This document shows, piece after piece, positions 2,937 to 55,012 of a DNA stretch of 64,000 nt (its first letter is position 1; each line of letters begins with the position of its first letter). A program made the position numbers and the translations under genes. The notes below the pieces were generated by a model. It saw nothing but the letters and a program-made list of their open reading frames with translations, was not told where the DNA came from and did no database searches. The stretch comes from Diplocarpon mali (lineage: Eukaryota; Ascomycota; Leotiomycetes; Helotiales; Drepanopezizaceae): the NCBI GenBank assembly GCA_024741835.1, contig JAENRP010000078.1, positions 1 through 64,000 of the forward strand, written 5' to 3'.

Positions 2937-2941
2937 ATAGT
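2937..2941. repeat. Target-site duplication of copia C1, left copy (ATAGT)
   Basis: ATAGT directly precedes the C1 5' LTR and recurs at 8954-8958. The uninterrupted site exists in R2 at about 51590, where only one copy is present. Confidence 0.9.
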
Positions 2942-8953: not shown

Positions 8954-8958
8954 ATAGT
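8954..8958. repeat. Target-site duplication of copia C1, right copy (ATAGT)
   Basis: Same five bases as 2937-2941. R1 ORF3 resumes directly after. Confidence 0.9.
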
Positions 8959-9606
8959 TTAAATAGTAGAGTATATAATAGTGCTTAAGAATCTAATAAA
9001 TTTTCTACTTTATACACTATTTCCTTATAACTTCTTTATACCTTTTTAGATAGTGAAATAATTTAATACCTATATGGCTTTAGCTATTAGTTAATACGTC
9101 TTAAAAATCTTTCCAAGTCCTTATAGAGTATTATTTATAATAATATCATTTATAAAGTGGCTCCGAAAGAGCGTTCTATATGTTTTGCTTATAAACTGTA
9201 TTAGTCTTTTTATATACTTATTTTTCTTATCTCAATTCTTCCGAAATAAATCAACTGAATTAGTATACTTTTAATACTTTTATAAAAACTTTTTATAATT
9301 AATACCTTTGCCTTAGAGTTCCTTATTTAAGAAATCATTAAAACCTAAGAATCCTTCCTTAATAGTAGAAATTCTATAGTTGAGTACCTTAATAAATGAA
9401 TTTAGGAATACCTACTGTTTAGTCTTACCTAACGTTCTATAAGTGCTTACTATATCTTCTAATGATCTTAGTGACTTACTATCCTATAAGAACCCTCCTT
9501 CTAATATTAGTTTATTATTAGTAGTGCTTAAGGACTTACTACCTAAGGTAACAACTGATATATTCTTCTTAGGTATGGCCTTTTTGCTTATAATTAATAA
9601 TACTAT

Positions 9607-10114: not shown

Positions 10115-13100
10115 TTAAATGGTCTTCTTTAAGGGTGATAGGCTAGATTCTCTAGATTGCTTAACTCAATTATCGGTTTTATTATCACTTTAGAGTCTTC
10201 TTCTTTTGCATTAGTTCTTACCTCTTGGCGTTTTCTTTGATTTAGGTAACTGAGGTTCATTCGAACTATCTTATAGGCTTAAGCTAGCTGAGTCCAACCT
10301 TACTCGCAGGCCAGGCTCGCGAGTCAGTCTTGGCGTTTCTAAGCTTAAGGGTAAAAATAGAAGATTAGTTCCTAAATTAGGGTCTAATACTATGCTAGCG
10401 TTTTAGTTCGTCTCTTTTCCGAATTTTCTTATAATAATGCCTTTATCAATTAGTATATTAGGCTTTCGGATAGCATTTACTTTATCGCATTATCCTTAAG
10501 ACTTAAGTTTATAAAGAAGCGATTTAGTATTTATAATATTTGTCTAGGCCTTAATAAGGGCATTAAAGAGTTTTTAATTATATTTTATAAGGTGGATTTT
10601 CAATTTGTCCTTATTAAGAAGGAATAACTCCTATACTTCGGTTATAATAGAAGGATCCGTTTAAAAGCGCTGACTAATAATGGCTTTAAAGAGGCTACTA
10701 CAGTTCTTAAGATAAAAAGCTACTTTAAAAGGTGCAATAGTTCTGCTTGTATTAATCTATTAAGGTACTAGAGGTTGCTTTAAAGTAGAGATTAAAAAGA
10801 TAAGATCGGAGATTTGAGTCTTATTTTCTAAGGTATTCTTATTATAAATAGCTATATAATTGTTGCAAAAGGCTATAAAGCTATTAATTTTATAAAGTTT
10901 ATTTAAGCGCATTTTAAAAAGGTGCTTTTATTTTATTATCATTATAATAGGGTTACTATTATTAGTAATAGGTTATAAGATCTCTTTTTACTTTATTTTT
11001 ACAGTTATGCAAGCTAGCTAAGATTTTGAACTAAATGCTTAAGAAGTCTATCGACTTATCTTCTTTATAGATAGAGTGAGTTTTATATTTGATTAAGAGC
11101 CGACCTACCTATTAAGGCTTTTAGAAGATGGCCCTTATCCGATTGATAGGATTTAATAATCTAAGACTTACTTTCTAATAAAATTGACTTATAGGCCGGG
11201 ACTGCAAGTGAAAATTGGAATTTCTTTATTAGTAGCACTTGCATTCCTTTTTATTAAAACAACTTAATTATAAAGACTAAGGCCAATTAATTAGAGAGGT
11301 TTAAGGTAGGCCGTAAGCTAATAGGCTCCTTTACTTTTCGCTATTATAGCTAAGAGGTAGAGTCTATAATGCATCTAAAGGACTTATTAAGTAAGATTGA
11401 ATATTATATTATAAAGAAAATAAGAAGGTATAAAGGTTGTATTATCTATAAGGTAGAAATAATAAAGGTATATCTTTACTTTTTATCTTATAATAGAGAG
11501 GAATATACTTATAAAAGCACTATTATTAATAGTAAAATTGTCAATTAAGAAGCGGTATCTAAAGGATTTAAGTATTATAATTGACCCTTCTTCCTCTATT
11601 TCCTCTTATTATTTATTACTTAATAATATCGAAAAGAAAGAATTGTTCCATTCAATCGGCTCTAATGCCTTTAAGGCTTTAGGATCAGCCTTGAATTTTA
11701 TAATACCTAGAGATGCCTCTATTATTAATAGGTTAGATTTACGTATCTTTAAAGAGATAAAGAACTAATTATTAAAGTAGATTAGAAAAAGATTAATATC
11801 TTTTATTATATAAAGAAGTTCAAAGTGTTTAATAGTTTTATTAATATCAAATCCTTTATAATTAAGATTATAGTAAACCGAAAGAGAGCGAATATAAAGG
11901 TTGCAAAGTCTTCTCCCTTCGATTCCTATGCTAAGAAGATACTATTAAAAGCGAGTCTTTATTATAAAGGATACTTAAATATTATATTATTCTTTAAGCT
12001 TAAAGTTAAGAATATCCGATTGAGGTATATTGCTATAATTATAAATATCTTAATTAATAGATTCCTCTTTGCGTTTTCTTTCTTATAAGATAAAATAGTC
12101 TTGCTTAGCATCTAAGAGACTAGGTTTTTAACTTTTATAATTATTAAAGAATTGAATAATATTTATAAGGGCGAACTTGTTTAAGATAAGCTATTAAATC
12201 TATCTAATAGCTCTCTTAATCGTTTTTAAAGCAATAGGAATAAGGTCTTCCTTTATATTATTATTTTTAAAATAGTTATATATAAATATAAAGAAGTTAA
12301 GAATTAGCTCCTTTAAGTTGTTAAAGAAGGAGTCTAAGCGAGTATGCAATCCTTTAGTTTTAAATTGCAAATTAGCTAAAGTGGCTATCGAACGATCTAT
12401 CCTTTTTAAAGGTTAAGCTAAAATAGGTTATTTAGCTAAAGGAGAGTCCTTTAAAGATTCCGAAAATTCTAAAGAGGCTGCGCTAAGCGTTTAGGCAGTT
12501 TGTTCGATAGCAGTTTCTAGAATTATTTTAGCAAGAGGCAGATTAAGTCTAGTTTTAAAATTCTCATTTCTAACTTTTAGTCTAAGGCTATAAGTTAAAT
12601 TATATAATTTAGCACTTATTATATCTTTAGGTTAAGAAGCGAATTTCAAGGTAGGCTTGATTATAAATAATTAATTCCCTTCTTTATTATTAAAGAAATC
12701 TCGTTTAAACCTTAGTATAAGAGTCCAGTTCTTTCTTAAAATAAGCAAACTATAAGTAGAAGCGCAGAGTCTTAGTATATTAATAATAGTACTATTAGGT
12801 AGGGTAATATCTATAGCTTAATTTGATCTTTTTATAGCCTTATCAGCTACTATAAGTACTGCATTAGATAAGCTTACAAATCTGCGATTGCGAATTCGAT
12901 TGCTTTAGAATTTTGCTATTCCTTTTTAAATGATAAAGAAATTGAGAATCTATATAGCTCTGGCTATAGGAGTATTTTCCTTAAGAATTTTTAATAATAC
13001 TTGCCTTTTATTATTAGAATTAATATTTGTTAGGAAGTGCGAATGAAATAGGAGTCCTCTTTTATTAATAGCTAAATTATCCAGTTATTAAATAGATTCT

Positions 13101-13420
13101 TTCCTTTTATCTTAGTTCGTTTTAAAAGTGTTAGCTAAGGTTATATATTAATTTGCATTAGCTAAGAATTCCTCTTTAGAGATTCCCTTTAATCTTAATT
13201 CTTTAGTTAGGAAGTTGTCAAATTAGAGAATTCCAGGGGCTATTTAAGTTGAAAGGTTATTAATAGTATTCGCATAAGCTAAAAGGAGTTTTTATTACTT
13301 TATATCTCTTAAGGCTGCGTAGGTCGATTTAAAGTTCTCTAATAATATAATAGCTTTGCTATCTTAAGAGAAGTTTGTAACTAGTGCTTATTTATCTCTT
13401 ATTGCTATAGATAAAACTAT
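10115..13420 (-). pseudogene. R1 ORF2, unknown protein
   Basis: Second copy of R-element ORF2, 3306 bp, 42 bp (14 codons) shorter than the R2 copy at 47097-50444. The start is ATA (13418-13420) where R2 has ATG, and the stop is TAA (10115-10117) where R2 has TGA. The frame is otherwise collinear with R2 and broken only by RIP-type stops. Palindromic motifs at 12573, 11187 and 10302 match the R2 sites exactly. The plus-strand open stretches at 11538-11768 and 11825-12088 are antisense shadows in two different frames. Function unknown; see the R2 copy. Confidence 0.82.
10302..10324. repeat. Palindromic motif, near-ideal copy in R1 ORF2
   Basis: Arms ACTCGCAGGCC and GGCTCGCGAGT around one central base. 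The left arm equals the ideal and the right arm differs at two bases. It corresponds to 50193-50215 in R2. Confidence 0.9.
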
Positions 13421-13827
13421 TTATAAGTTCTTTAAAGGCATATTGCTTATGAAAGATAGGGAGTATAAATAAGAAAGTTCAATAGGGTATAAGAATTAAA
13501 AGGGTATATAAGCTGCAATAGGTTTGCTATATATATATTAAGGAAATTGGACTTTTTATTTATTATTTAAGGAAAGTAATAGGAATGCTATAATTAAAGG
13601 CTAATATTAAGAATATAAAATAAGTTAAAGTAGGTAAGAATTTAAAGTGATCTTAAAAGATCTATATCTTAAATAATAAAGGAGGCGACTTTGCTAAAAA
13701 TGTAAAAATAAGGATTAGAGGAAGGTAGGACAATTAATAGGCTAGGAAATCGTTTAGTATTCCTATCTGCGTTCTTTAGATATTTTAAGAATAATAACTT
13801 AGGGTTGCGATTAATTAGGTATTTTAA
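13421..13827 (-). other. R1 spacer between pol and ORF2
   Basis: Reverse complement of R2 46691-47096. It contains a TATA-like run near 13510-13540 on the sense strand, but I see no conserved reading frame. Confidence 0.5.
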
Positions 13828-34236: not shown

Positions 34237-34481
34237 TATAAAATAGAGGAGAGATAATATAAGAATAGGCCTAAGGGAAGACTTAAAAACAAAAGGAGGA
34301 AGCACTATAAGCGGGCTCTCTTAGATAAGATATTAAGAATAAGTCCTAAGTATAGGGTATATTTAGTACTATAGCAATACGCGCTGTCTCTATATATAAA
34401 AGGTTGCCCTTTTATCCTCCTACTAGCCTACGCCGATTATATAATATATATTACAAGACCTATCCATCTCAGGTCTCTATA
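34237..34481 (-). repeat. R1 5' LTR (245 bp)
   Basis: Same sequence as 39252-39496 and 54764-55008. Near its start it holds a 6-bp inverted repeat, AGACCT ... AGGTCT, separated by 9 bp. Confidence 0.92.
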
Positions 34482-36599: not shown

Positions 36600-39251
36600 T
36601 TGCGAAAGTGCGACTTATTAAAGCTAGATCTTAACTCTTTAATAAGAGGGAAGCAATTCCTAACCTTTTATACTATTAATATAAATAGACTTAAAGTATT
36701 ATTATTAGCTTTAGTAGATATTAGAGCCCTTAGTTACCTGTTTTTAAATCGTTTCCTTTTTATATATCTTTCGAAAGCGATTAGCTTTAAAATTCTTCCT
36801 CTTTTAGCCCTTATTCCTATTTATAGATTTTAAAATACCGTTTGCGCATAAGCTATGCACTATATGCGCTTTCACTTAATAATTAATAGAAGGCGTATTT
36901 ATAACTGCCCTTAGGTTATTCTCGACTTAGGCTAGCGTAATGCTATTATTAGAGTCAAATAGATGCGCTGATTCTAACTTAAATTTGATTTATAGGAAAA
37001 TCGATTTATATAGCCTTTATATTACCTCCTATTTTCCTAATTTGCAAAGGAAATTATTATTCGTCTTTCCCCTTTTAAAGGACTTTGGATCCGATTTAAT
37101 CATTAAGCTAATATTAATCGCAAAGAATAGGAAATGGCTATAGATAAAGCTCGATAGATTAATAGAAGATAGTCTTATATTAATTTAGTAGTCTTAATTA
37201 GGCGTAAGATCCTTATTACTATTATTAGGCCAGCGCCTTTACTTATAACTAAGCTAGATCTAAGAAAATAGTTTAATACAAATCAATTATAATCTAACCC
37301 TAGTTGCAAATGCCCTAAAGCTGCAGTTCCTATTTGCGAAATTAGTGCTAATACCTTTTATTATAATATAAAGCGTAAGGAGATTGAGTTCTTTTAAACT
37401 AGTATTTATAAAGTGGATAGGATTCTAAAGGAAAGATATAAGCCTAAGAATCCTAATATTGAAAAGCTAATTAACGATCGACTTTTAAAATAGTATTAAT
37501 CTTTAAGATAAGCCTTCTTAAAAAGGGATATAGATACCCTCCCTTCCTATTAGTACTATAATTATAAGATATAGCTAAAAGGGCCTTTGCCTAATGCCTA
37601 TTCGCCCCTTTACTATTAATCTACTAAGGAGCTTAAGGTTATAAAGGAGTACTTACTTGAGAATTTAAACAAAGGCTTTATTAAGATAAGTACTAGCCCC
37701 TTTGCTTTGCTAGTACTATTTATAAAGAAGGCCGACAGTAGCCTCCGATTTTGCATAGACTACCGGAAGCTAAACGCATTAACTCGGAAAGACGCTTACC
37801 CGATTCCGAGGATAGATGAGCTTTTAAAGCGAGTATCTAAAGCTAAGATTTTTATAAAACTGGATATTTAAGCTACTTTTAATCGGATATAAATAGACCT
37901 TAAATTAAAGGAATATACTACCTTTCGAATAAGGTATAGATCTTATAAATATAAGGTTCTCCTATTTAGCCTTTGTAATAGACCTAGTACTTACTAATAG
38001 TATATAAATGACGTTCTTTTAAATTACTTAGATGATTTTTATATAGCGTATTTAAATAATATTTTAATTTACTTTAAGAATATTAAGAAGCACTAGGGTT
38101 ATATCGAAAAGGTGCTAAAACGACTTTTAAAGGCTGGCCTTTAAGTAGATATTAAGAAGTGCGAGTTCTATATTACTTAAATTCGATATCTTAAGTATAT
38201 TTTAATAATAACTAAGATTGAACTAGACTTTAAAAAGGTCGAACTGCTATGCAATTAAAAGTACTTGAAAACTATTACTAAAGTAAAGTCCTACCTAGGA
38301 TTTTACAAGTTCTATTAATAATTCATTTGCAATTTTAGGCTAATTGCTAAACCCCTTTCTATTTTTACCTAACCGATAGTGCCTTAGAATTAGATAGAAG
38401 AGTGCCGAATCGCTTTTAAAGAACTTTATAAGTAGTTACTCTTAATTTAGCAGATTTACCATTTTAACCTTAACTTACTTATAAAGCTAAAAACTAATGC
38501 TTCTAATAGTATTATTGCTAAAGTACTTTCTTAGCAATACTCTAATAAGTAATAGTACCTAATCGGCTTCTATTTATATATACTCTTTAACTACGAACCT
38601 AATTAGGAAATATATAATAAGGAACTCTTTGCTATTATTAAATCCTACTATAAATAGAGACCTAAGCTTATATCACTTAAGGAGCGAGTTGATATTTACT
38701 CAGATTACCGCTCCCTTAAGTACTTTATAACTACTAAGGTTCTAATTGCAAAATAGTACTAATAGATGGAATTTTTATTTGACTTCAATTTTCGAATCGT
38801 ATATACTCTTAGCAAAGATAATTAGAAGGCTGATATTCTTAACCGCTAAGAGTAGGATATACCAGTTTATAAATAAGCGAAGCTAGATAGCCGATCCTAG
38901 GTTCTGATTTCCCTAGCTTAGTTAGACCTTTAAATCAATACTAAACTAGCTAATAAATTTCTTATTAAATCTACTAAAGGCACCCTTGCCCTAATATCAA
39001 CCGATACTCCTGATTCGACCCTAAATCGACCTAAGGATTCCTTTAATTTAATTAAAAAGCTTTATTAAGATAATTGCAAATCCTTTTAAAAGATTCGCAC
39101 CGACCTCCTTAAGAACTACTCCTTAAAAGACAGATTGCTTTGCTTTAAGGAGCGTCTTTGCATATACTATAATACTCCCTTATACACTTATCTAATTTAA
39201 GAAGCTTATAACTAACCTTTAAGCGCGCACCCTAGTAGCTTAAAGACCTAT
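36600..39251 (+). pseudogene. D pol, part 1 (protease, reverse transcriptase, RNase H, start of integrase)
   Basis: Protease D-T-G-A now reads D-I-R-A at 36717-36728. Reverse transcriptase about 37610-38230 has C-I-D-Y-R-K-L-N-A-L near 37755 and Y-L-D-D now Y-L-N-N at 38049-38060. RNase H has T-D-A-S as T-N-A-S near 38490. The N-terminal zinc region of integrase begins near 39100 and is cut at 39251 by R2. Open stretches 36600-36833 and 36940-37143 are parts of this frame or shadows of it, not separate genes. Confidence 0.88.
39248..39251. repeat. Likely target-site duplication of R2, left copy (CTAT)
   Basis: CTAT is repeated at 55009-55012 right after the 3' LTR. Four bases are certain; a fifth depends on the exact LTR end. 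Confidence 0.7.
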
Positions 39252-39496
39252 TGTAGAGACCTGAGATGGATAGGTCTTGTGATATATATTATATGATCGG
39301 CGTAGGACGGTGGGAGGATAAAAGGGCCATCTTCTATATATAAAGATAGCGTGTATCGCTATAGTACTGAATATACCTTATACTTAGGACTTGTTCTTAA
39401 TATCTTATCTAAGAGAGCCCGCTTATAGTGCTTCCTCCTCTTGTTTTTAAGTCTTCCCTTAGGCCTATTCTTGTATTATCTCCCCTTTGTTTTATA
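39252..39496 (+). repeat. R2 5' LTR (245 bp)
   Basis: Starts TGTAGAGACC and ends TTTTATA (once TTTTACA). The following bases, TTAGTGACTTACG (TTAGTGACCTACG in R1), would be the primer site; I do not recognise the tRNA. Confidence 0.92.
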
Positions 39497-40442
39497 TTAG
39501 TGACTTACGTAAGGACCGATTTCTTAAGATTTCCGTCCTTATACGACCTTATTAATCTCTTAGTTTGCAGATAAGAGGCCGGCCTTTAAAATACATCTTT
39601 AAAATACTTATAGCATTTTAATTAACTTTAAAACCCTTATCTTTAATTGCCTAATTACTTAGAACTATCGATTTTCGTTTAGCAACTATTAATAACCTTA
39701 GATTTTCCCTTTTCGACTCTGCTTTAAAAACTCCTATTTTCTTCCTTAACTCTAAGATTCTCGGAATTTTCGGCTTTTTAGTATAAAAAGTTTAATAAAC
39801 CCTATAATAGCAATCTCAAATAGTAGTAGTTTCAAGTACTTAAGTAATACCAAGTGCAAACTCTAATAGGAAATGCCTCCTTAGAATCTTTAGAAATCCG
39901 AATCTAATAATTCAGCCGCCTTAGCTTAATAGAATTCTAAAAATTGCCTTAGAATCGTCTCTAAAGACCCCTTTATTCTAAAGATTAATAGGAATTGGCC
40001 CAAAGGCTAAAAAGAATCTTAGATATAAACCTTATCTTAGAAATTGGTCTTAGATTAGGTAAACCTTATCTTATTACAATTAGTCGCAATACTCCTATTA
40101 GTTATTTAGTACCTACTTAAAATCTCTTAGTAAACTTAGATTAAACTTTTAATAGAATCCGGAATTCTACTCCTAGGCTTAGCCTATAAGTAGGAGGATA
40201 AAAAGATATCTTTAAATAACTTAGGACTGCTACCTACTTTTTCAATATTGACATTTGAAAACACTAATAATAATAATAATTTTAAATTTTTCACTAACCC
40301 TTTGTCTAAATCTTTTTAAACTTATCTTAATTACTCTAAGATTAACTCAGATTCTAAATACTTTTTAAGCCCTTTTGAATTTCGAAGTACTCCTCTTAGT
40401 AATTAATCTCGCGATATTAAAGCTTCCCCTTTGCCCCTTATA
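39497..40442 (+). other. R2 leader
   Basis: Between LTR and recognisable Gag. It contains a palindromic motif (40169-40191), and an open frame begins to be coherent from about 40203. The gag start codon could not be placed, probably because its ATG is now ATA. Confidence 0.55.
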
Positions 40443-41640
40443 GATTCTATTAACCTAAACGGTTAGTATAAAACGATAATAGCCGCATTTAAGGCTATTA
40501 CTAATCACTTTCCCCTCTATAGTTCTCCTAGCGCTCTTTACTTTATAGGCGCTAATATTACTGATTTCCTTAAGCAATATAAGGAAACTTATTACGATTT
40601 TAATATTATATAAGAGGATATGATTTCTCGACTTCCTTACTACTATGATTATATAAGCAAAGATATTATCAAATCCTTTCTTAAATGGAAAATGCATAGT
40701 TTATAGGAATTCCTTATTAAGGCTCTTAAGTCTGAATTCCGAGAATTTGATAGATAGCAGATTCGCAATACCTTAGCTTTCTTAAAGGAATTTATTCTAA
40801 TTACTTATACTTTTAAGGAACTTAAAAACTACTATCGGACTTTTACTTATATATTAAATACCTTAATCAGCTAGAAAATACTTAGCAAAGTTGAAAGAGG
40901 CCGCCTTTTCTTACTTAGATTACCTACTAGCCTTCGAAATAAGATCATTAAGCATTTTAGGATTAATAAGTAAGACCTTATAACCTTTGCCTTATTTGAG
41001 GAATTCTCGGCCTTTGCTTTAAAATCAGATCTTAGTAAAAGAACTATTAATACTATAGAGTAGGAAAAAGCCCTTACTCCCTCCTATACTAAAGACCTCA
41101 AAAGCTTGGTCTAAGAACACTTAAAAGCTCTAGAAGTTATAGAAGAGGCAAAGAAGAACCTAGTAGTTATACCTTTTACTTATAGTCCTAACTTAAGAGT
41201 AAGATCTAACCTTAGAATTAAGGAACTTAAGACCTAATTTATAGAACTCTAAATCTAAAGCTTAGAAACTAAGATTAATAATCTCTTATAAGAAAAATAG
41301 CATATTCCTTAGTTTGGTAATAGATAAAACTCGGCCACTATAAGCCAACTTAGTAGTTCCTATTATTAGGCTCCTACTTCTTATCATTTGGAACAACCAG
41401 CTAATATAAGAATGTAATAGCTAGCTGAAGAAGGAGGAATTGATCTTAACTAGCACTCTGCTAATATTAATACTATAGGGTACTAAGGAAACGGCAATAG
41501 AAGACGACTAACTTGCAACTTTTGCAATAATAAAGAACCCAATTGCGCTTTATATAAGTATTGCAACAATTGCCCTCTTTTCCTTTGTTTTATTAACACT
41601 AGGGTTATATATATTAATAAGTATAAGATGCTTTACATTA
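40443..41640 (+). pseudogene. R2 gag
   Basis: Degenerate frame whose text (G-A-N-I-T-D-F-L, then R-L-P-Y-Y near 40630, and R-L-P-T-S-L-R near 40918) follows the capsid pattern of fungal Ty3/gypsy Gag proteins. Downstream is an in-frame palindromic motif (41178, reading T-Y-S-P-N-L-R-V) and an unusual Cys-rich zinc-binding segment at 41514-41575 (C-N-F-C ... C-A-L-Y-K-Y-C-N-N-C) instead of a classic CCHC knuckle. Stops are RIP-type. Confidence 0.82.
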
Positions 41641-44600
41641 GGGATCTTAGGCCAGAAGCTATCCCTATTAAAAAGCACTAGAATCGCTTATAGTTATAGA
41701 CTATTCGAATAATGATATATAGTATAAAATAAGACGAGAATTTAGTCAAACGATAGCATATTATAGATATAAATGCTAAAATTCCAACTTATATATATAC
41801 TAGTCCAATTAGCAACCTACTTAAGGGAGTTCTTAAGGACTTAGCTTCTGATCAAATAGCTATAGAAGTTAAAGGCATCTCTATCTTAGGATAGGTTAAT
41901 AATAATATATCTACTAATATTAATGCTACTTTTATATCTAGAAACCCTTAGAATACTTAGTGTCCTTTTAGATCTACTACTCTCTTAATACTAATAAAAC
42001 TAGCCAAAGTCTAGAAATTAACGCGTGCAACTTAGGAATCTTAATATAGAGTCCAAATGCTAAAAGATACCTAATAATCTAAAACTATAGTAGATAAGGA
42101 TAAAGCCGATATAGTAGACAAATTAATTAGAGATATAATAGATAAAGATAGCTTTAAGCTCAAAGATTAAGAAGTTAAAGTTATTACGCAGACCCCTAAC
42201 CTTAAGCAAAAGAGACAGATGTTAAAATAGGAAAAATTCGTTAATAAATACGCTAGTTCAATTGCAATAAAGAAAGCTATAAAGAATATTATAGCCTAGC
42301 AAATTAACCTTATATTTAAAGACCTATTTAGTTTGATTAGACGCTTTAATAAAGTGCTAGGAAAGCATATCCTAGTTACCTTTAAAGATTTGAATAATAA
42401 TAAGGAAATGGAAATTATAATATAAAAGAACTTTAAAAAGCACTTAGCCTTAATCAAATGTCTTTAGATTATAGAAAACGAAGGAACTCAAAGGTATTAT
42501 AATATTATAGTAATAGCTTTAATATTTTAGAATATTAATTGAAATTATTCAGTAGTTGCAATAAAAAGCCCTATTATTATTTGTTTAATAGAAGAATCAG
42601 TTAAAGTAAAGGCTCTGATCGATTATAGTTTAAAAGTTAATATAATAATTAGAAAAGTAGTAGAAATAGCTCAATTAACAATTGTTAGCGATCGACTCCT
42701 TATTTATTTAACTATCTTTAGATTAAAATATAATTTTAATAAATAGGTGAAAAACGTAAAGGTTAAAGTTAAAGGAATTGTTAATTATACTAACTTTCTA
42801 ATAATAAAGAATTCTTCAAATGATATTCTTTTAAGAATGCCCTTTATTTTAAAATCTTAGCTAATATTTAACTATCCTAGAGATAGGCTTATAAAAGCTA
42901 GCCTTTAAAATATAGATCGATCCTTAAAAGGACAAATAGTTATTATAAGAGATATAGCTGAATTCTAAAATAAGATTTTAGGAAACGATTAGCTAATATA
43001 AGGGCTAGGCTTAATACTAGTAAAGGAAGGCACTTAGCGAGGAGTTATAGTAAAAGAAAGGTGAGTTTGCCGATTTTAAATAATAGCGATTTGACTTACG
43101 GTCTTAGACTAGGAGTCAAATCTGGAATTTTGAAAAATAGTATAATCGGCGTTTTATTAGTTTAATAATTAAGAAAAAAGAAAAATAAGGTAAAAAAGAG
43201 AGTTCATTTTACAAATTTTAATAATTTACTAATCATTTTAAAAAACCTAAAAACTACTTATAGGCTAGACCTATAAGTGAAAAATAATAAAATTACTAAT
43301 AATATTTCTATTTACGCACTTTAAATTAATAACTTAGAAAATCTTTTAATTGTTTTTAAAAAGGAAAATTCGGATCGTTTTATAGGATTTAATAAAAAAG
43401 GAAAGAAGTAGAAAAGCATAGTACTAGCTAATATTCGAACTATATATAAAAGCAAGGCCGATAAAGTACAACCGGTAGATTAGGGAATCTCTAATAGCTT
43501 AAAGCCTAAAGGACTAGATGATTAGTTTAAATAAGATAAGAAGCTTCGACCTCCGAAGCTAAGTAGCAAATTCGATAAGTTCATTATAGGCAGATTTTCT
43601 AATAAACCCATCGGATATCGACTAATAAAAGAACGTTTCAATATACTGAAAATTAAAGAAGACTTAATAGAGCAAGAATGCAAACTACTTTATAAAACCT
43701 TAATAAATCGAAAGGACGCCTTAGCTTTTGACTAGACGGAACTTGGCCAGATTCGAAAAGAGGTCATACCTTATATTAAGATTAAGATAATACCTTATAA
43801 AGCCTGGCAAGAGAAAACATTTAGGGTCCTTAAAGCTCTTTAAAAAAAGGTAATCGAAATATTAAAGGACAGGCTAAAGCAAGGTATTCTCAAGTTCTAT
43901 AATAGCCCTTATAAAAACAAATGGTTCCTAGTTACTAAGAAGGAAAAGGGAACTTACAAACTAATAATAGTAGTAGTAGAGATGAACCGAGTAACTATTA
44001 GAGATGCTAATGTTCCTTCGAATATAGATAAGTTCTTAAATGAATTCGTAGGATTAACCCGCAGTTCTCTTATTAACTTCTTCTTTAAATATAACTAATT
44101 TATTCTTAATGTTAAATCAAGAGATATAATAGCAATTCAAACCCCTTTTAAGCTACTTTAGATAATAAGATTACCTTAAAGGGCTATAAATTCGATTGTT
44201 CAATTTATTCAAATAATCTATAAGATACTAGTAGATTGTATACCTAATATTATGCTCCTTTATATAGATAATATAAGAGTAAAAGGATTAAGATCATTCT
44301 ATAACTATAAAGAAGTTCTCCCTAGTATATAACGATTTATAATAAAACACATTTAGAACCTAGACTAAGTGCTTATACAATTCAAAAGGGTAAGAGCAAT
44401 AGTTAGTCCAAAGTTATAATACTATCTCCTATCGATGGAAATTATTAGTTTTATTACTAATTCCAATGGCCGAAGTCCTTAGAGGGCTAAAGTATTTAAA
44501 ATCGATAAATAGAAAAGGTATAATAATATAGCAGAAGCTCGCGCGTTTATTAGAGTTATAGTATACTATCGCATTTAGATCAAGGATTTCGCTAAAAAGG

Positions 44601-46690
44601 CAGTACCTATTTACTCCTTATTTTAAAAAGGGGCTGAGTTTCAATAGAAGAAACCTTAAATAGAGGCTATAAAACAATTGAAGTAAGCGTTACTTAAAGC
44701 GCCTTATCTAATCAAAATAGACTATAGAGCCAACGCTAGCCCAATTATACTAATAGTTAATATAAGCTTAATCGAATAAGGTGCTATCCTTTAATAAGCT
44801 AATAGCTAATAGAAAAGACATCTAGCTCACTTTAAAAGTGGTCTTTGAAATCTAATAGAGATAAAGTATAATACTATTAAATAGGAATGCAAAGGCGCCC
44901 TAAAGGCGATAAAAAAGATAAGAAGCAACCTTTATAGCACTTACTTCATTCTTAAAACTAATACTAAAGTACTAGTAGAACAATTAAATAGAGCTATAAG
45001 CGACCTACTAAAAGCTTTGCTAATGAAATAGATTGCTTAAATAAGACTAATAGACTTTAAAGTCAAATATATTCTAAGAATAAAAAACACTACTGCTAAT
45101 AGCCTTTTAAGAAGAACTCAGCCCTACCCCTTTGATTTAATTAAAAAAGATAAAATAGATATTAATAAGTAAGTAGAAAACAAAGTTAGTTATCTATTAA
45201 TATATCGCCTTAAAGGGACTCGACTCGCAAGCCTAGCCCGCGAGTTAAATAAGAGAATTTTATCACCTAACTACTTAAATGACTTTAAAGAAATTGCAAA
45301 GTTTTTAATTATGCTTAAACAACTAAAGATAGTTACTCTTAAGGATTTTCAGAAATTCAAAGCTAAAACTCTAATTTATCTAATGCAAGGAAGACGATTA
45401 TTTAAAAGGAGCGATAACTCATTTCCTATATAACTCTGCTTAAATAATAAAAAACTAAGGGCTAAGGCTATCTAAGATATTTATAAGGAAACTGGCCACT
45501 AAGGAGCTAAGTCTACTTACTACTAACTCTCGAGAAAATTCTTTTAGAAAGGCTCTTTTAAAGACTGCAAAGCTTTTGTAAAGAGTTGCGTCCCCTATTA
45601 GAAACGAAAACCTAATTATAAGGAAAATCCCTTATTCCTAACCTGACTATTAGGCCTTTTCTATAAAGTCAGCCTTAATATTATATAAGTACTAACTACC
45701 GAGAATAGAATAATATATTTTATTCTAATAAAGGAAGACCTATTAAGATGGCCTAAAGGACGACCTTTAAGATCTGCTAACTCTAAATCTATTGCAAAGT
45801 TCCTTTAAGAAGACGTAGTCTATTGCTATAGACTTTTTAGCAAATTAACTATTAATAGAGGCCTTAAAAATAAAGGAGTAGTTAAAGCTTTCTTATAAAA
45901 ATATAATATCAAATAGGTTCAAATCTTAGTATACAACTCGAAAGCTAATAGAGTAATAGAATAAGGATACTATAATATTCTTAATAGTCTATCCAAAGTT
46001 ACTTATAAAGGATTTAAGGATTAAATAAAACACTTTTATAAAATACTCTTTGCTTATTAAACGATAATCTACAAACCGATTAGAATTATACTATTCTTCC
46101 TTATTTATAGTAGAGAGGCATAGCTCCCTCTTAAATCCTAATAGCCTATTTAAAGATTATTCGACTATAGTTAAATTCGGAACCGTTCCGATTTGCTTAT
46201 AATAAGATACTAATAACTTAAGCTCTAAGATATAGATATAAAGGAAATCATTTTGCAAAAGAAACGATATTAGGAAAAAGCTAAGGAAGTATAGGCTGCT
46301 TTTAAAGTATTTAAAACGCACCCTATTTGAAAAGATAATCTTATCCTAGTTTATAATATTATAAGAAGTATTAATATATTAGTAGATACCAAACTTAATT
46401 ATCGATAGCTTAATCTATTTAAGGTTAAATCTAAGCAGAAAGAAAAGGGATACTATTCTCTTTAGGAACTTAATAAAGTCGATATTAAAGGAACCTTTGC
46501 AGCCAACCGACTGAAGCGCTTTTATTAATGTAACTAAACCTTATTCCCCTTAGAAGATAAATCAGAAATTGATATAACCTCTGAATCTTCTATAGGAACC
46601 GACGGCGATATAAGCAATTTTAAACCCTTAGATAAAGACTAAGATTTTTCTAACTTAACCTATAAGCTAGTCCTGCGAGTAAAGAATATT
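41641..46690 (+). pseudogene. R2 pol (protease, reverse transcriptase, RNase H, integrase)
   Basis: Protease D-C-G now D-Y-S at 42621-42629, in the gag frame. Reverse transcriptase about 43700-44450 has T-I-R-D-A-N near 43998 and Y-I-D-D now Y-I-D-N at 44261-44272. RNase H lies near 44714. Integrase about 45480-46330 has a zinc region near 45490-45600 and an N-G-M-I-E-type site (S-K-A-N-R-V-I-E near 45940). The frame changes at least twice (between protease and RT, and between RNase H and integrase). Palindromic motifs are at 43094, 43256, 45223 and 46658. No chromodomain is seen. Confidence 0.88.
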
Positions 46691-47096
46691 AAAATACCTA
46701 ATTAATCGCAACCTTAAGTTATTATTCCTAAAATATCCGAAGAATGCAGATTAAAATACTAAACGATTTCCTAGCCTATTAATTATCCTACCTTCCTCTA
46801 ATCCTTATTTTTACATTTTTAGCAAAGACGCCTCCTTTATTATTTAAGATATAGATCTTTTAAGATTACTTTAAATTCTTACCTACTCTAACTTATTTTA
46901 CATTCTTAATATTAGCCTTTAATTATAGCATTCCTATTACTTTCTTTAAATAATAAACTAAAAAGTCCAATTTCCTTAATATATATATAGCAAACCTACT
47001 GCAGCTTATATACCCTTTTAATTCTTATATCCTATTAAACTCTCTTATTTATACTCCCTATCTTTCACAAGCAATATACCTTTAAAGAACTTATAA
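46691..47096 (+). promoter_or_regulatory. R2 spacer between pol and ORF2, possible ORF2 promoter
   Basis: No conserved frame. It has a TATA-like run (about 46979-46996) about 100 bp before the ORF2 ATG. That ORF2 is driven from here is inference; it could also be expressed from a spliced LTR transcript. Confidence 0.35.
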
Positions 47097-50000
47097 ATGG
47101 TTTTATCTACTATAATAAGGGATAAATAAATACTAGTTATAAACTTCTCTTAAGACAGCAGAGCTATTATATTATTAGAAAACTTCAAATCGACCTATGC
47201 AGCCTTAAGGGATATAGAGCAATAAAAACTCCTTTTAGCTTACGCGAATGCTATTAATAACCTTTTAACCTAAGTAGCCCTTAGAATTCTCTAATTTAAC
47301 AACTTCCTAATTAAAGAATTAAAATTAAAGGGAATCTCTAAAGAGGAATTCTTAGCTAATGCAAATTAATATATAACCTTGGCCGATACTTTCAAAACAG
47401 ACTAAGATAAAAGAGAAGAATCTATTCGATAATTGGATAATTTAGCTATTAATAAGAGAGGACTCCTATTTCATTTGCGCTTTTTAATAAATATTAATTC
47501 TAATAATAGAAGACGAGTATTATTAAAAATTCTTAAGGAAAACACTCCTATTGCTAAAGCTATTTAAATTCTCAATTTCTTTATTATTTAAAAAGGAGTA
47601 GTAAAATTCTAAGGCAATCGAATTTGCAATTATAGATTTATAGGCCTATCTAATGCAGTACTTATAGCAGCTAATAAGGCTATAAAAAGATCAAATTAGG
47701 CTATAGATATTACCTTACCTAATAGTACTATTATTAATATGCTAAGGCTTTGCGCTTCTACTTATAGTTTGCTTATTTTAAAAGAGAACTGGACTCTTAT
47801 AATAGGGTTTAGATAAGATTTCTTTAATAATAAAAAAGGGAATTGATTATTTATAGTCAAGCCTGCTTTAAAATTCGCTTCTTAACCTAAAGATATAATA
47901 AGTGCTAAACTATATAATTTAACTCGCAGTCCTAGACTAGGAGTTAGAAACGAGAATTTTAAAATTAGACCTAACCTACCTTTTATTAAAATGATTCTAG
48001 AAACCGCTGCCGAATAAACTGCCCAAACGCTTAGCGCAGCCTCTTTAGAATTTTCGGAATCTTTAAAGAACTCTCCTTTAGCTAAACGACCTATTTTAGC
48101 TCAACCTTTAAAAAGGATAGATTATTCGATAGCTACCTTAGCTAATTTGCAATTTGAAACTAAAGGATTGCGCGCTTACTTAAACTCCTTCCTTAATAAC
48201 TTAAAGGAGCTAGTTCTTAACTTCTTTATATCTATATATAACTGTTTTAAAAACGATAATATAAAAGAAGACCCTATTCCTATTACTCTAAAGACGACTA
48301 AGAGAGCTATTAAATAGATTTAATAGCTTATCTTAAATGAGTTCGCCTCTATAGATATTATTCAATTCTTTAATAATTATAGAAGTTAAGAACCTAGTCT
48401 CTCAGATGCTAAGCAAGACTATTTTATCTTATAAGAAAGAGAATGCGAAAAGGAATCTATTAATTAGGATATTTGTAATTATAGCAATATGCCTTAATCG
48501 GTTATTCTTAACCTTGAGCTTAAAGAACGATATAACATTTAAGTGTCCTTTGCAATAAAGACTTGCTTTTAATAGTATCTTCCTAGCGTAGGAATCGAAG
48601 GGAAAAGACTTTGCGACCTTTATATTCGCTCTCTTTCGGTTTACTATAATCTCAATTATAAAGGATTTAATATTAATAAAACTATTAAATACCTTAAACT
48701 TCTTTATATAGTAAAAGATATTAATCTTTTTCTAATCTACTTTAATAATCAGTTCTTCGTCTCTTTAAAGATATGCAAATCCAACCTATTAATAATAAAG
48801 GCATCTCTAGGTGCTGCAAAATTCAAGGCTAATCCTAAAGCCTTAAAGGTATTAGAGCCGATTAAATAGAACAATTCTTTCTTTTTAATATTATTAAGCA
48901 ATAAATAGCAAGAGGAAATAGAGGAAGAAGGGTCAATTGTAATGCCTAAACCCTTCAGATGCCGCTTCTTAACCGATAATTTTACTACCGATAATAGTGC
49001 TTTTATAAGTACATTCCTCTCTATTATAAAATAAGAAGTAGAGATGTACCTTTATCACTTCCGCCCTATAGATAATACAACCTCTATACCTTCTTATTTT
49101 CTCTATAATATAATATTCAGCCTTATTCAATAAGTCCTTTAGATGCATTATAGACTTTACCTCTTAGCTATAATAGCGAAAAGTAGAAGAGCCTATCAGC
49201 TTATAGCCTACCTTAGACCTCCTTAATTAATTGGCCTTAGTCTTTATAATCAAGTCGTTTTAATAAAGAGAGATATAAGTGCTACTAATAAAGAAATTCC
49301 GATTTTCACTCGCGGTCCTAGCCTGCGAGTCAATTTTATTAAAAAGCAAGTCTTAGATTATCAGATCCTATCGATTGGATAAAGGCCAGCTTTTAAAAGC
49401 CTTAATAGGTAGGTCGGCTCTCAATCGACTATAAAACTTACTCTATTTATAAAGAAGACAAATTAATAGACTTCCTAAGCACTCGGTTCAAAATCTCAAC
49501 TAGCTTAAATAATCGTAAAGTTAAAGCAAAAGGAGATCTTATAACCTATTACTAATAATAGTAATCCAATTATAGTAATAATAAAATAGGGACACCTTCT
49601 TAAAATACTTTTAGACAATTCTTATAAGACTAGTGGTTTTATAGCCTTTTGTAATAACTATACAGCCGTCCTTAATAAGAATACCTTAGAAAATAAGACT
49701 TAAATCTCTGATTTTGTCTTTTCAATCTCTGCTTTAAAGCAACCTCTAGTACTTTAATAGATTAACGCAAGTAGAACTACTATACCTTTTAAGGCAGCTT
49801 TTCATCTTAAGAACTGCGATAGCCTCTTTAAAGCTATTATTAGTTAACGCTCTTAAATAGATCTATCAGTTATAATCGAAGTATAGAAGTTGTTTCTTCT
49901 TAATAAAGACAAATTGAAAATCCACCTTATAGAATATAATCAAAAGCTCTTTAACGCCCTTATTAAGGCTTAGATAAACGTTATAAATACTAAGTCGCTT

Positions 50001-50444
50001 TTTTATAGACTTAAGTCTTAAGGATAGCGCGATAAAGTAAATGCTATCTGAGAGCCTAATGTACTAATTGATAAAGGCATTATTATAAGAAAATTCAAAA
50101 AAGAGACGAACTGAGACTTTAGTATAGTATTAGACCCTGATTTAGGAACTAATCTCCTGTTTTTACCCTTAAGCTTAGAAACGCTAAGATTGACTTGCGA
50201 GCCCAGCCTACGAGTAAGGTTGGACTCGGCTAGCTTAAGCCTATAAGATAGTTCGGATAAACCTCAGTTACTAAACCTAAGGGTATAAACAGAGGTTCCT
50301 TTAATAGAGGCACTTAAATCAAAGAAATTGCCAAGAGGTAAGAACTAACGCAAGAGAAGAAGACTCTAAAGTGATAATAGAACCGACAATTAAGTCAAGC
50401 AATCTAAGGAATCTAGCCTATTACCCTTAGAAAAGACTATTTGA
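47097..50444 (+). pseudogene. R2 ORF2: large unknown protein, paralogue of ORF3
   Basis: Single frame from ATG (47097) to TGA (50442-50444), 1115 codons, no frameshift, broken only by TAA/TAG codons of RIP type. I recognise no enzyme or structural domain. It looks soluble, Leu/Ile/Asn/Lys-rich and probably helical. The C-terminal tail is basic (P-R-G-K-N-Q-R-K-R-R-R-L with one stop read as Gln), like a nuclear-localisation signal. It aligns with ORF3 throughout: F-S-Q-D near the start, K-G-I-S near 47332, P-I-A-K-A-I near 47557, F-L-Y-N-I and Y-R-L-Y-L near 49097-49170. In-frame palindromic motifs lie at 47922, 49308 and 50193. Sense orientation is favoured because both R copies keep this frame open apart from Gln/Trp-derived stops. 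Function unknown. Confidence 0.8.
49308..49330. repeat. Palindromic motif in R2 ORF2
   Basis: Arms ACTCGCGGTCC and AGCCTGCGAGT; reads T-R-G-P-S-L-R-V. It occupies the position equivalent to 53258-53280 in ORF3 and pairs with 11187-11209 in R1. Confidence 0.9.
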
Positions 50445-50956
50445 AGGACTTATAAATTCGAGTTGAATCTTTTTTAAGATTATCTACTTTCTAAATGCTA
50501 ATACCTCTTTATTCTCTATTTATTATTCTATTCTATATATATTCCTTACTTTATTTCATTCTTTATATAATCCATCCCTTGATTATTTCCTTTATATACA
50601 ACTTTCTAACGCTTACCTTTGAAATATCATCCTCACCTTTGATAATTGTCATTTACCAATTATAGGTCCTTATATGCATTATACCCTACTTTTATTCCTA
50701 CTTCCAAGCTTATTATACCTACTTTTCCTTTATATACTAATGCGATTCCAAACTCTATAAATAAGCCTCTCTCCGCACTACGATTTTACTTTTTTTTACT
50801 TTTTCTATAACCCTACCAGACTTATAATACTAGCACTACTACTATTATCCGTCTATTATCAATCTTTTCTACTACAAGCCTCCTATATCGATTAATCTTT
50901 CCTAATAATCATCTACTCGTTTAGCTCTACGTTTCTTAATAAGCTGATTTACTATA
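50445..50956 (+). promoter_or_regulatory. R2 spacer between ORF2 and ORF3, possible ORF3 leader or promoter
   Basis: 512 bp without a conserved frame. It is pyrimidine-rich (TTTTACTTTTTTTTACTTTTTC-like, near 50785-50808) with TATATATAT near 50535. Its role is inferred from position only. Confidence 0.35.
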
Positions 50957-53257
50957 ATGCCCCTGAACTTATTTAAGAAAGCCATACTTAAGAAGAGTAT
51001 AGCAGTTATTGCCTTAGGCAGCAAATCCCTAAGCACTCCTAATAATAAACTAATATTAAAAGGAGGATTTTCTTAGGATAGAAAAGCTTTAAGATTATTA
51101 AAAGATATAGTGACTACCTATAGAACGTTAGGCGAAATAGAATAATAGGTATTCTTAAACTTATCTATTGATATACTCAATTATAGGATTTCTGCTATAG
51201 AAGAAGGATTTCTAAGGTTCGATGACTTCTTTAATAATAAACTTAAGATTAAAGGTATTAACTATAAGAAATTTTTATAAGAGTACTAAGGGTATGCCAA
51301 CTTAGTGGATTTATTTCGAAAGAACTAAGATAAGAAAGATAAATGCATAAAGAGGCTAAGACAATTCACTAAAGGCACCTAAAGCATGCTTTTCTAAAGT
51401 CACTTTATAAATAACATTACCGCTAATAACGCCTTGCAAGGGCTTAGTAAAATCTTTAAAACCTACTAACCTATAGCAAAGGCCATATAGGTATTAAACC
51501 ATTTTACAATATAAGAAGGTATAAAGAAACTCTAAGGAAATAGCATAAGAAGTAGAAAGTTCGTAGGGTTCTTAAGTACTATTATATACTCTACTATTCA
51601 AACTATAAAAGATAATCCTTTATAGTATAATAATTTTGCACTTCTCGACCAAACTATTCTAAATACCCTTAGCCTTTAATAATTATAGTACAGACTGCTT
51701 ATTATAAAAGAAAAGATGATTTACCTAGCTAAGTATATGATAAACTTCTTTAATAATAAGTTAAAGAGATAGGAATTTATTATATCTGCCGCTCTAAAGC
51801 TACTACCACCCTTAGTAGAATAGACTAATAAGGAAGATTTGACCTATAGGCCTGGCCCACGGGTAGAAGTACTATATAAGGAGGAGGTCCTTAAGCATAA
51901 GGTACCTATAATACTAAGAATATAAATTGCTAACTGTTATAACCCTTATTTATTAGACTCAAATGAGTTTGAATCGCTATCCTTAGAAATGCCTTAAATA
52001 CCTTAAATACTAGTAGTAAAGAAATTGACTCGCAAGCCCAGCCTATAGGTTAATACGCATAATAATATAGACTTAAATAATAAAATATCAAATAAAGAAA
52101 GCAATACTATCCCTAATATGCTAAAGATTTTTAATAATAATAAGAAAGATATTACTAATATTATACAATCCTTTCCTAAGGACTTGTAAAAATTCGTCCT
52201 AAAATTCTATAAGTCAATAATGAAACATTTGAAGAAAGAAGGTCAGGGAGAAGTTTTATTAGTATAAGAGGGAATAGCAAAGGCCATTAAACAGATTATA
52301 AAGTTATAGCAAGACGAATTCTCTATAAACAATATTATACAGTTCTTTATCGATCATAAGAAATTGAATAGTAACTACTATATTCTTAAAGAAAAGTCAG
52401 AAGATAGTATAACTATCGTCTCTATAGAATGCTATTAAGTTCCCCTTAATATTAAGATAATACTATAGTATAGCGATAAGTTCAAGATTATAGTAATACT
52501 AGAAATGAAAACAAGACTCTCCAAATTTATAGTAAGAACGTTCGAGGACTTTAATTTTGATAAATTTTACGCCTTTTATAAATGATAATACGCGTAGTAC
52601 TATAGGCTGGCAACAATAGGCCTTAATAATAAAGATATGACGTCTAATATCTACAAATTTTGCACTACCCCTAACCTAAAGCTGTTTTTACTACACTTAA
52701 GGAATTATGCAATTATAGCTACTAGCAATAGAATAGTAAGCTAAGTTAAGAAAGATATATTATTAGGTTTCGCTAAGTTTAAGGTAGAACCCGAAGCTTT
52801 GAAATTATTCTATAATATCGCCTAGACTCCCGCCTAGTATAGTGCTATACTAGCTAGCGATAATTTAACATTACTCTATAGCAAAGGGTTTTTAAATATA
52901 CTTAAATTGTTCAGCTGCGCTTTCCTAAGTACTATACGCATATATGGTCATAGTTCTTACGCAAAGACTTCATTTTTAGCGTTAGTATAAGAAGAACTAG
53001 AAATATATAAATATTATTTTCGAATATCTAATAAGAAACTAGCACCTCTATCTGCATTTCTCTATAATATAACTCATAGTCTAATATAATAAATGCTAAG
53101 AATATACTATAGATTGTATCTAAGTGCTTTGCTAACTTATTATAATTCTTTATATAAGCTAGTAATATACCCTAAGCTGGCATAGTTTATAGGGATTGAC
53201 TACTATATAAAAGTAGTTTCTACTAGAATTGACGCTAATACAAGATTCGTTAGATTG

Positions 53258-53280
53258 ACTCCTAGGCCTAGCTCGCAGGT
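53258..53280. repeat. Palindromic motif in R2 ORF3
   Basis: Arms ACTCCTAGGCC and AGCTCGCAGGT; reads T-P-R-P-S-S-Q-V. Site equivalent to 49308 in ORF2. Confidence 0.88.
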
Positions 53281-54079
53281 CACTATGCCTAATAATAGGA
53301 CTATTAATTACTATATGATTCTAGTAGCTAAGCAGTCTATTAAATAATTTGCAATATGGGAAAAGTCGTACGAGTTATTAATCCTTATACTACCTAGGCT
53401 TAAAAATGCTTAATAGGTCTTAATAAACCTAGCATAAAGCGCTAGTTAATAAAAAGAATTAAGTATCAAATAAAGAACGCCCTTAAAGGAATATATTTCT
53501 AATAAGACCGTCCCATTTTCGGTATTTATAAGATAAGGTATATTTATTAACCTTAAGTCTAAATAGGAACCTGGCAAAGGCGGTTTTTTAATAATTAGTA
53601 ATAACTATACTAAGGTAGTTGGAAATAGAGCACTTAAGAATAGCACCGACCTAGAGGATTTTATTATTAACTCTATTAATATAAAGTGACCCTAACTTAC
53701 GAGATGGAATATTATAAGTGAATCGTTTGCCAAGTTTCGTACGACCCTTAGTATAATAAAAGGTGGCCCCCTATCGGAGGCTCTTATAGGAAAGAGACCC
53801 TAGAGCGACCTATTAGTAGTAATAACTATAAAGGATTTATTCGCAAAAGATATAACTCAGCTAATAGTATATTTGAAGAAGTATAAATAAGAACTTTTTA
53901 AAGATTTTATCAATACCTAAAAGCTAGTTCAATAGCTAAAGCTGCAATTATATAAAGATAAGTCGTAGACTAAGATAAGAGGCTCTAATAACAATATTAA
54001 GGCTAATAATATGATTGATAAGACGATTCTATTTAAGAAGTATAGCATTAAGAAACCCTATATAAAGACACCTAATATA

Positions 54080-54102
54080 ACTCCTAGGCCTGGCCCGCAA
54101 CT
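54080..54102. repeat. Palindromic motif near the ORF3 C-terminus
   Basis: Starts ACTCCTAGGCCTGGCC and reads T-P-R-P-G-P-Q-L in the ORF3 frame. It matches 441-463 in R1 and the C-terminal motif of ORF2 (50193) in relative position. Confidence 0.88.
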
Positions 54103-54418
54103 TGATCTAGCAAAGGGCAAGGCTAAGGAAGTAGTATCCGTAGAATCTCCTGCCTCCCCCTCCTCTATTACCGACAATTCCCCTAAAGATAATAATAATA
54201 ATAATAATAATAACGCTATTATATAAGTCTCTTTCCCTATTAGTAGAAGCTGCTAAAGTATACTAGCATCTGCTTAAACTACTAAAGCTCTTGCTATACT
54301 AAGACCTATCTTATTAGATACTAATAGCAATGCTATAAGAAGAAGTAGTCGTTCGGCGAAGAGAGTGATATCTAGTAATAGGTCTCCTTGCCCTTTAAAG
54401 AGAACTAAGGAAAATTGA

Positions 54419-54763
54419 TATCTAGGTTAGTACTATTTTTAATTGTTTTTACAATTCCATAGCTTATTTGTTTTGCTAGTTTCATTTTCTGACTCCTGGG
54501 CCCAGTCCGTAGGTGAAAAGCCGTATATNNNNNNNNNNNNNNNNNNNNNNNNNNNNNNNNNNNNNNNNNNNNNNNNNNNNNNAAACTTCCCTTTTTTTCT
54601 TTTACCTTTAATAATAATATAGCCCTAGTTTAAGCCTTTTAATATATTAGTTTTCTCGCACTTAGGGTTTGCTAATAATTGACATACTATTGCCTTAACC
54701 TATATTATTTTATATTCTTTACTAATAATAGTAAGGGCCACTACTTTTATTATTTAAAATATA
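54419..54763 (+). other. R2 3' untranslated region with assembly gap
   Basis: Contains a palindromic motif (54492-54514), 54 Ns (54529-54582) and about 180 bp of AT-rich text. The bases before the LTR (TTATTTAAAATA) are not a polypurine tract. Confidence 0.75.
54529..54582. other. Assembly gap (54 N)
   Basis: Unknown bases inside the R2 3' region. The R1 copy of this place lies at or beyond the left edge of the window, so it cannot be filled from here. Confidence 0.99.
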
Positions 54764-55008
54764 TATAAAGACCTAAGATAGATAGGTCTTATAATATATA
54801 TTATATAATCGGCGTAGGATAGTAGGAGGATAAAAGGGCCATCTTTTATATATAGAGATAGCGCGTATCGCTATAGTACTAAATATACCTTATACTTAGG
54901 ACTTATTCCCAATATCTTATCTAAGAGAGCCCGCTTATGGTGCTTCCTCCTCTTGTTTTTAGGTCTTCCCTTAGGCCTATTCTTGTGTTGTCTCCCCTCT
55001 GTTTTATA
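54764..55008 (+). repeat. R2 3' LTR (245 bp)
   Basis: Aligns end to end with 39252-39496. It starts TATAAAGACC (once TGTAGAGACC) and ends TTTTATA. Confidence 0.92.
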
Positions 55009-55012
55009 CTAT
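55009..55012. repeat. Likely target-site duplication of R2, right copy (CTAT)
   Basis: Matches 39248-39251. D integrase coding resumes here. Confidence 0.7.

Follow-up and report, generated by a model that had tools for sequence, protein, structure and literature searches.

The genome of the ascomycete Diplocarpon mali contains a giant long terminal repeat (LTR) retrotransposon that carries two large additional genes. This element, which we call R2, is located at positions 39252-55008 (~15.76 kb) of a 64 000-nucleotide stretch (hereafter the window), corresponding to bases 1-64000 of contig 78 (JAENRP010000078.1) in an assembly of 49.4 Mb in 676 contigs (GCA_024741835.1). R2 is very probably a young insertion of a giant Ty3/gypsy family that was killed by repeat-induced point mutation (RIP). 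Its plan is LTR-gag-PR / RT-RH-IN-ORF2-ORF3-LTR, with protease (PR), reverse transcriptase (RT), RNase H (RH) and integrase (IN) followed by two long open reading frames (ORFs). Fungal Ty3/gypsy elements are usually 5-8 kb in size.

Structure of the R2 element

The original prediction, made from the letters of the window alone, described clean 245-bp LTRs and a probable CTAT target site duplication, and both are present at the edges of R2 (Table 1). The two LTRs differ by 22 transitions and no transversions. R2 is depleted in CpA (383 CA versus 1271 CT, with a TA/AT ratio of 1.41), which is a mark of RIP, and the window has no ORF of 150 amino acids (aa) or more. The gag-PR frame includes a cysteine-rich stretch near 41502 and an ALID motif near 42609, which we take to be knuckle-like and protease-like, respectively, and RT-RH-IN is in a different reading frame. 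RIP has obscured the tRNA primer site and the polypurine tract, judging by eye from the flanks. Pfam searches of pol found RT_RNaseH_2 (E = 1.5e-7) and then Integrase_H2C2, the integrase zinc domain (E = 1.5e-9), and a PDB search matched Ty3 RT/RNase H (E = 6.1e-16). Since RNase H precedes integrase and the PDB match is to Ty3, the gene order is that of Ty3; R2 thus combines direct LTRs and a short target duplication with the RT-RNase H-integrase order and Ty3-type RT of Metaviridae.

The extra sense-strand coding sequence that had been proposed beyond pol consists of two long low-stop sense frames. Together, with their spacer, they cover ~7.3 kb of the ~8 kb that separates pol from the 3′ LTR. 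Reading through 47100-50600 (ORF2) and 50903-54400 (ORF3) gives 61 and 59 stops, respectively. An intact element would be transcribed from its LTR, then copied and integrated by its gag-pol products, and ORF2 and ORF3 may be made from separate messages, each gene being preceded by a spacer (~0.37 and ~0.56 kb).

The additional genes travel with the element

ORF2 and ORF3 move as part of the element. The whole genome was searched with plain 26-mer patterns, allowing up to 3 mismatches and using reversed patterns as controls, and we found 672 matches for the LTR, 251 for pol and 242 for ORF2, with none in the controls. The family is present as a few hundred mutation-damaged copies; 240 copies, if all were full length, would amount to ~3.8 Mb. 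From 704 first-look candidates, 40 ORF2 places were scored and the 30 best-scoring loci (R2 plus 29 others) were fetched, a choice that favors complete copies. Among these, 27 continue upstream into pol (all except L025, L028 and L034), 28 continue downstream into ORF3 (all except L018 and L019), and 25, among them R2, are continuous across pol, ORF2 and ORF3. At least 25 of 40 scored ORF3 places have an adjoining ORF2 among the 61 ORF2 places listed.

The spacing of the parts is also conserved. Among the matches listed, 11 same-strand LTR-ORF2 pairs lie within 30 kb of each other (R2 included), seven of them spaced 7820-7848 bp and one 7710 bp, the others being at 9552, 15394 and 21298 bp. 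For 22 LTRs, we also examined the sequence lying 7.4-8.0 kb inward. Three (C388, C330 and C253b) were excluded for having an inner flank other than 5′ internal sequence, and C182, which has a 3′ LTR, was for that reason treated as a 5′ LTR; an ORF2 start was present at the expected distance in 12 of the 19 remaining. Beside an LTR match, opposite-strand LTR fragments at G000:C330:14699-15136 represent a nested or rearranged LTR pair. A 3′ LTR was expected 15.5 kb from a 5′ LTR at eight places; the ORF3 end was present with an LTR in four of them and without an LTR in two, and the remaining two had neither. Both ends could be read in four copies besides R2 (C378, ctag/ctag; C366, atag/atag; C218, ctgc/ctgc; C182, ctac/ctac), and all five have a perfect 4-bp duplication and an ORF3 and LTR at the end. 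In each of their LTR pairs, we counted 16-25 transitions and no transversions; with all differences being transitions, these are young insertions changed by RIP. The original prediction of a giant Ty3/gypsy element with two extra genes is thus borne out by the LTR and target duplication structure, the Ty3 RT/RNase H match, the conserved LTR-to-ORF2 spacing, the equal pol and ORF2 counts, and the ORF3 adjoining the 3′ LTR in four other copies, and the genome search for further copies that it called for, among the matches listed and in short stretches, supports the cargo as part of the element.

R2 could instead be a composite, in which an ordinary gag-pol element hosting a separate, nested ORF2/ORF3 element was amplified once as a unit. 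Such an origin would suit the lack of relationship of ORF2 and ORF3 to gag or pol, and the variation of ORF3 independently of the backbone (see below). However, the repeat scan of R2 found no terminal repeats around ORF2/ORF3, the pol and ORF2 counts are nearly equal, and 25 of 30 loci are collinear throughout. No same-strand LTR pairs 7-8 kb apart were seen by eye among the 40 best LTR places, and the LTR has no match in any of the 22 stretches taken 7.4-8.0 kb inward of one. The original prediction had named LTRs directly around gag-pol, with ORF2/ORF3 bounded by their own terminal repeats, as what would speak for a separate element; neither such repeats nor elements with the same LTR lacking ORF2/ORF3 were seen among the matches listed and the short stretches fetched. 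We consider a composite highly improbable.

Several observations count against a single giant element with this plan. Collinearity is broken in five of the 30 loci: L025, L028 and L034 depart upstream of ORF2, the L018 alignment ends at 50690 (R2 coordinate), and L019 (G000:C84) has lost most of ORF3 (R2 51078-53807) through an internal deletion. Seven of the 19 5′ LTRs have no ORF2 at the expected distance (C286, C125, C413, C38, C185, C7 and C46). In five of these (C286, C38, C46, C7 and C185), an ORF2 that possibly belongs to the same copy is listed farther downstream on the same strand, which is what nested insertions would give. The gag of R2 has no match in Pfam. Each of 42 scored ORF2 matches has at least 32 stops, and no functional copy was seen in the assembly.

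ORF2 and ORF3 are paralogous and have intact counterparts

When read with X, ORF2 and ORF3 of R2 are 27% identical over 1020 aa by blastp, and their intact counterparts P0002 and P0003 are 35% identical over 1064 aa, indicating that the two are paralogues of one ancestral gene. The counterparts are PZA11_006394 (P0002, ORF2) and PZA11_006393 (P0003, ORF3) of Diplocarpon coronariae (Helotiales, Drepanopezizaceae), the only species in which we found intact relatives of the element proteins. Their genes are probably neighbors, based on consecutive locus numbers and a matching contig record. P0002-P0006 are putative, not established, products of an LTR element. ORF2 forms one cluster of six sequences and ORF3 four clusters (of 1, 3, 4 and 1). 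A search with an alignment of the intact members returned only P0002 even though P0003-P0006 were among its rows, and so does not imply absence from other fungi. D. coronariae also has three further proteins of the ORF3 type. Two of them, P0005 and P0006, are missing internal blocks, and the third, P0004, ends in a different C-terminus; gene models or mutations would account for these differences. In this apple pathogen, the annotation lists intact versions as hypothetical or unnamed proteins, which may therefore be counted as host genes.

Diverged ORF3 types on a common backbone

RIP causes transitions only, so transversions record the history before RIP. The window has a second, minus-strand copy, R1, which reaches from 34481 to the start of the contig, where it is truncated; other elements are nested in it. 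As far as 50.5 kb, R1 and R2 differ by 0-8 transversions in each 500 bp, and beyond that point by 23-42; their DNA identity is 88-92% in LTR, gag, pol and ORF2 and 74-79% in ORF3. The earlier statement that R1 has the same content therefore stands for gene order but not for the sequence of ORF3, which is of a diverged type.

The same pattern recurs across the family. Among ten loci profiled, four remain at 0-2 transversions per 500 bp throughout, five have 0-5 up to 50.0 kb and 23-44 at 51.0-52.0 kb, and L017 is mixed. Four of 29 loci (L010, L011, L012 and L020) have the R2-type ORF3 and 24 have diverged types; for L018 and L019, broken alignments inflate the transversion counts. The 25 loci that are not R2-type throughout have 0-10 transversions in 49400-49999. 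In 22 of them, transversions then cluster densely from 50287 onward, and L014, L015 and L018 lack this cluster and rise later. In L017 (G000:C166), ORF3 is R2-type from 51000 to ~52017 and different afterwards, giving a second switch at ~52018.

Transversions between ORF3 types accumulate at third codon positions. Across 267 codons in eight loci, we counted 4-10, 2-8 and 27-37 at positions 1, 2 and 3 (for example 4/5/27, 10/5/34 and 8/2/35), with no indel in 801 bp, and R1 and R2 differ by 46/21/87 over ORF3 51601-54060. The 3′ ends of five copies gave 13/4/37 and 11/1/32 in two cases and, in three that have a long gap, 2/0/8, 2/0/6 and 7/0/15. This third-position bias indicates that ORF3 was kept as a protein under purifying selection before RIP. 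The case is less clear for ORF2, in which transversions are few and the codon bias is weak (55/49/94 pooled over 28 loci).

Judging from these profiles, several diverged ORF3 types appear on one nearly invariant gag-pol-ORF2 backbone, a pattern pointing to module exchange, and the types may have arisen via template switching between co-packaged genomes. Faster evolution of ORF3 under diversifying selection would also confine divergence to the ORF2 3′ end and ORF3, as observed, but it fits poorly with the abrupt rise to a dense cluster beginning at 50287 in 22 of 25 loci, with the third-position bias, and with the return to divergence within ORF3 of L017, and we regard it as rather unlikely. 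At least one of the two extra genes was kept by selection and varies as a module.

Possible function of ORF2 and ORF3

Domain searches of ORF2/ORF3 in Pfam and NCBIfam (four of the five intact proteins) gave nothing convincing, and a PDB sequence search with P0002 and alignment A2 found no convincing relative. EF-G-binding_N (0.024 in Pfam, three of five members) was taken as chance. An origin from gag was rejected, with no blastp support and an hhalign probability of 0.1% using a shallow two-row gag profile. A search of viral contigs returned 144 pattern matches, none of them relatives. By eye, the proteins are made up of conserved blocks with linkers between them. Four of the five intact proteins have basic C-terminal tails resembling nuclear localization signals (NLS), and none has a hydrophobic segment, with the highest 19-residue mean hydropathy at 0.93-1.26.

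The position after integrase is the site of env or other captured ORFs according to PMC6431247, so ORF2 and ORF3 could be envelope-like genes of an errantivirus-type element. The low hydropathy and the basic tails argue otherwise, and by hydropathy the third gene has no signal peptide with a membrane segment; we give an envelope function almost no credence. A different possibility is that the two are captured host genes, carried as passengers with no role for the element. They have no convincing relation to known protein families, which would agree with capture. Nevertheless, 28 of 30 ORF2 loci continue into ORF3, ORF3 has been under purifying selection and several ORF3 types have been kept, making mere passengers unlikely; the searches for other homologues reached only close relatives.

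The NLS-like tails and the lack of a membrane segment suggest nuclear accessory proteins rather than envelopes. Based on these tails, conservation and duplication, we tentatively propose that ORF2 and ORF3 could act inside the nucleus as accessory factors of the element, where they would most plausibly assist integration or counteract silencing by the host of so large and so heavily RIPped a family. The tails are short motifs, P0004 lacks one, and AlphaFold models were unusable (pLDDT 28.5 for the whole ORF3 protein and 38.4 for residues 30-288), all of which tell against this proposal.

A palindromic repeat in coding sequences

The linkers contain LTRGPGPRV-like nonapeptides, three in P0002 and four in P0003, encoded by a near-palindrome of ~29 nt (37 sites). 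With a matrix built from eight R2 sites, the window yielded 63 sites, counting the eight themselves, and the reversed window yielded none. The sites are located in R1, R2, a Copia-type element and another Ty3-type element (for example at 5205, 10314, 19350, 25317, 45233 and 49318), and also elsewhere in the genome, where two plain forms gave 113 and 61 matches with no control matches, one place possibly counting on both strands. A pattern with one central base was found, and one with two central bases had no matches. The palindrome at 45220 in pol is read in another frame as TRLASLARE. Of four loci from the genome-wide search, two encode TRLA[VS]LARE in pol, one LTRGPGSRV and one neither. Six further places were fetched, two with TA/AT of 1.0-1.1 and four at 1.3-1.4; in four of the six the palindrome is in an open stretch of 84-175 aa and read STRGPGPGV or LTPGPGPRV.

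Two sites occupy homologous columns when ORF2 is aligned with ORF3 and are thus probably older than the duplication, and an alignment gap at the second ORF3 site is suggestive of insertion. The main ORF3 switch, dense from 50287, begins 71 bp after the palindrome at 50190-50216, and the second switch of L017 (~52018) is a few bases from the one at 52025-52051, two cases for which no statistics apply. Palindromic elements of Rickettsia are short palindromes located in frame inside protein genes. The repeat described here is likewise short, dispersed and in frame in coding sequence; unlike those elements, it is in a eukaryotic nuclear genome and mostly in LTR elements, and its mobility is only possible. 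If mobile, it would extend to a nuclear genome a type of element that is known from Rickettsia. As a speculation that we think will probably prove wrong, ORF2/ORF3 might be a new nuclear counter-silencing class exchanged as modules, in transposons colonized by a second-order selfish palindrome that survives in frame and may promote template switches.

The original reading of the element was sound; what it had missed, and what is new here, are the ORF2/ORF3 paralogy, the intact D. coronariae proteins, the selection on ORF3 and its modular types, and the LTRGPGPRV palindrome.

Other features of the window

Three copies of a Copia-type LTR element are present at 24905-30956 (minus strand), 2944-8953 and 57520-63766, two of them inserted in R1. 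The copy at 24905, the only one scanned, matches RVT_2 (E = 7e-19). The element has a tandem palindrome array with 39/48-nt spacing (5166-5301, 28558-28732 and 59831-60053). Another LTR element at 14121-21287 (plus strand), with RVT_1 and RT_RNaseH of the Ty3 kind and 266-bp end repeats, sits in R1 near the end of pol.

Table 1. Coordinates of features of R2 and R1 in the window
Feature	Position	Strand	Basis
Target site duplication, left, CTAT	39248..39251	.	read at R2 edge
5′ LTR of R2, 245 bp	39252..39496	+	repeat scan, LTR comparison
gag + protease frame, low-stop; edges approximate	40119..42950	+	frame analysis
pol frame, RT + RNase H + integrase; edges approximate	43000..46710	+	domain searches, frame analysis
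ORF2, 1105 codons, RIP-degraded	47076..50393	+	ends fixed from intact counterpart P0002
Palindrome in ORF2, LTRGPGPGV in P0002	47919..47945	.	
Palindrome in ORF2, FTRGPGPRV in P0002	49305..49331	.	
Palindrome in ORF2, LTREPGPRV in P0002	50190..50216	.	
ORF3, ~1154 codons, RIP-degraded, ORF2 paralogue	50954..54418	+	ends fixed from intact counterpart P0003
Palindrome in ORF3, first LTRGPGPRV of P0003	51839..51865	.	
Palindrome in ORF3, second LTRGPGPRV of P0003	52025..52051	.	
Palindrome in ORF3, LTPGPGSRV in P0003	53255..53281	.	
Palindrome in ORF3, MTPGPGPRL in P0003	54077..54103	.	
3′ LTR of R2, 245 bp	54764..55008	+	repeat scan, LTR comparison
Target site duplication, right, CTAT	55009..55012	.	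read at R2 edge
5′ LTR of R1	34237..34481	-	mapped from R2
ORF2 of R1	10166..13441	-	mapped from R2, inverted-repeat arms
ORF3 of R1, first part, interrupted by Copia-type element	8954..9606	-	mapped from R2
ORF3 of R1, second part, diverged type	125..2942	-	mapped from R2

Comparison with known elements

R2 resembles Ty3 of Saccharomyces and fungal Metaviridae in its LTRs, RT-RH-IN order and related RT/RNase H, but differs from Ty3 and fungal Ty3/gypsy elements in its size (~15.8 kb), its two extra ~1100-codon genes after integrase and its 4-bp target duplication. The target duplication of Ty3 is 5 bp. The family thus shows that accessory coding sequence of ~7.3 kb can be borne by a fungal Ty3 element that numbers a few hundred copies. 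The view that no family with two ~1100-codon genes after integrase had been described is not contradicted in the open-access papers searched. In D. coronariae DC1_JKI, repeats make up 34.15% of the genome, with 20.74% Copia and 5.67% Ty3 (PMC11527701), and the accessible parts of that paper, PMC12158172 and PMC5628827 make no mention of a giant Ty3 element with ORF2/ORF3.

Unlike Ogre/Tat of plants and Burro of planarians, the latter with an internal region of up to 25 kb, R2 has short LTRs and a fungal host, its extra genes are a paralogous pair 3′ of pol, and a shared domain was not found. Ogre/Tat elements have long LTRs and their extra ORF upstream of gag; in R2 the LTRs are 245 bp and the extra genes follow integrase. 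Ogre and Burro are described in PMC6431247, the accessible part of which names no giant fungal LTR element. LTR retrotransposons of bdelloid rotifers have an extra ORF3 beside gag and pol that is common to different retroelement types, as described in PMC5408684. The rotifer ORF3s are env-like or encode a GDSL esterase or DEDDy exonuclease, in contrast to ORF3 of R2, which belongs to a duplicated family of ~1100 aa with no known domain; among the open-access papers searched, these rotifer elements provide the closest precedent for an exchangeable ORF3.

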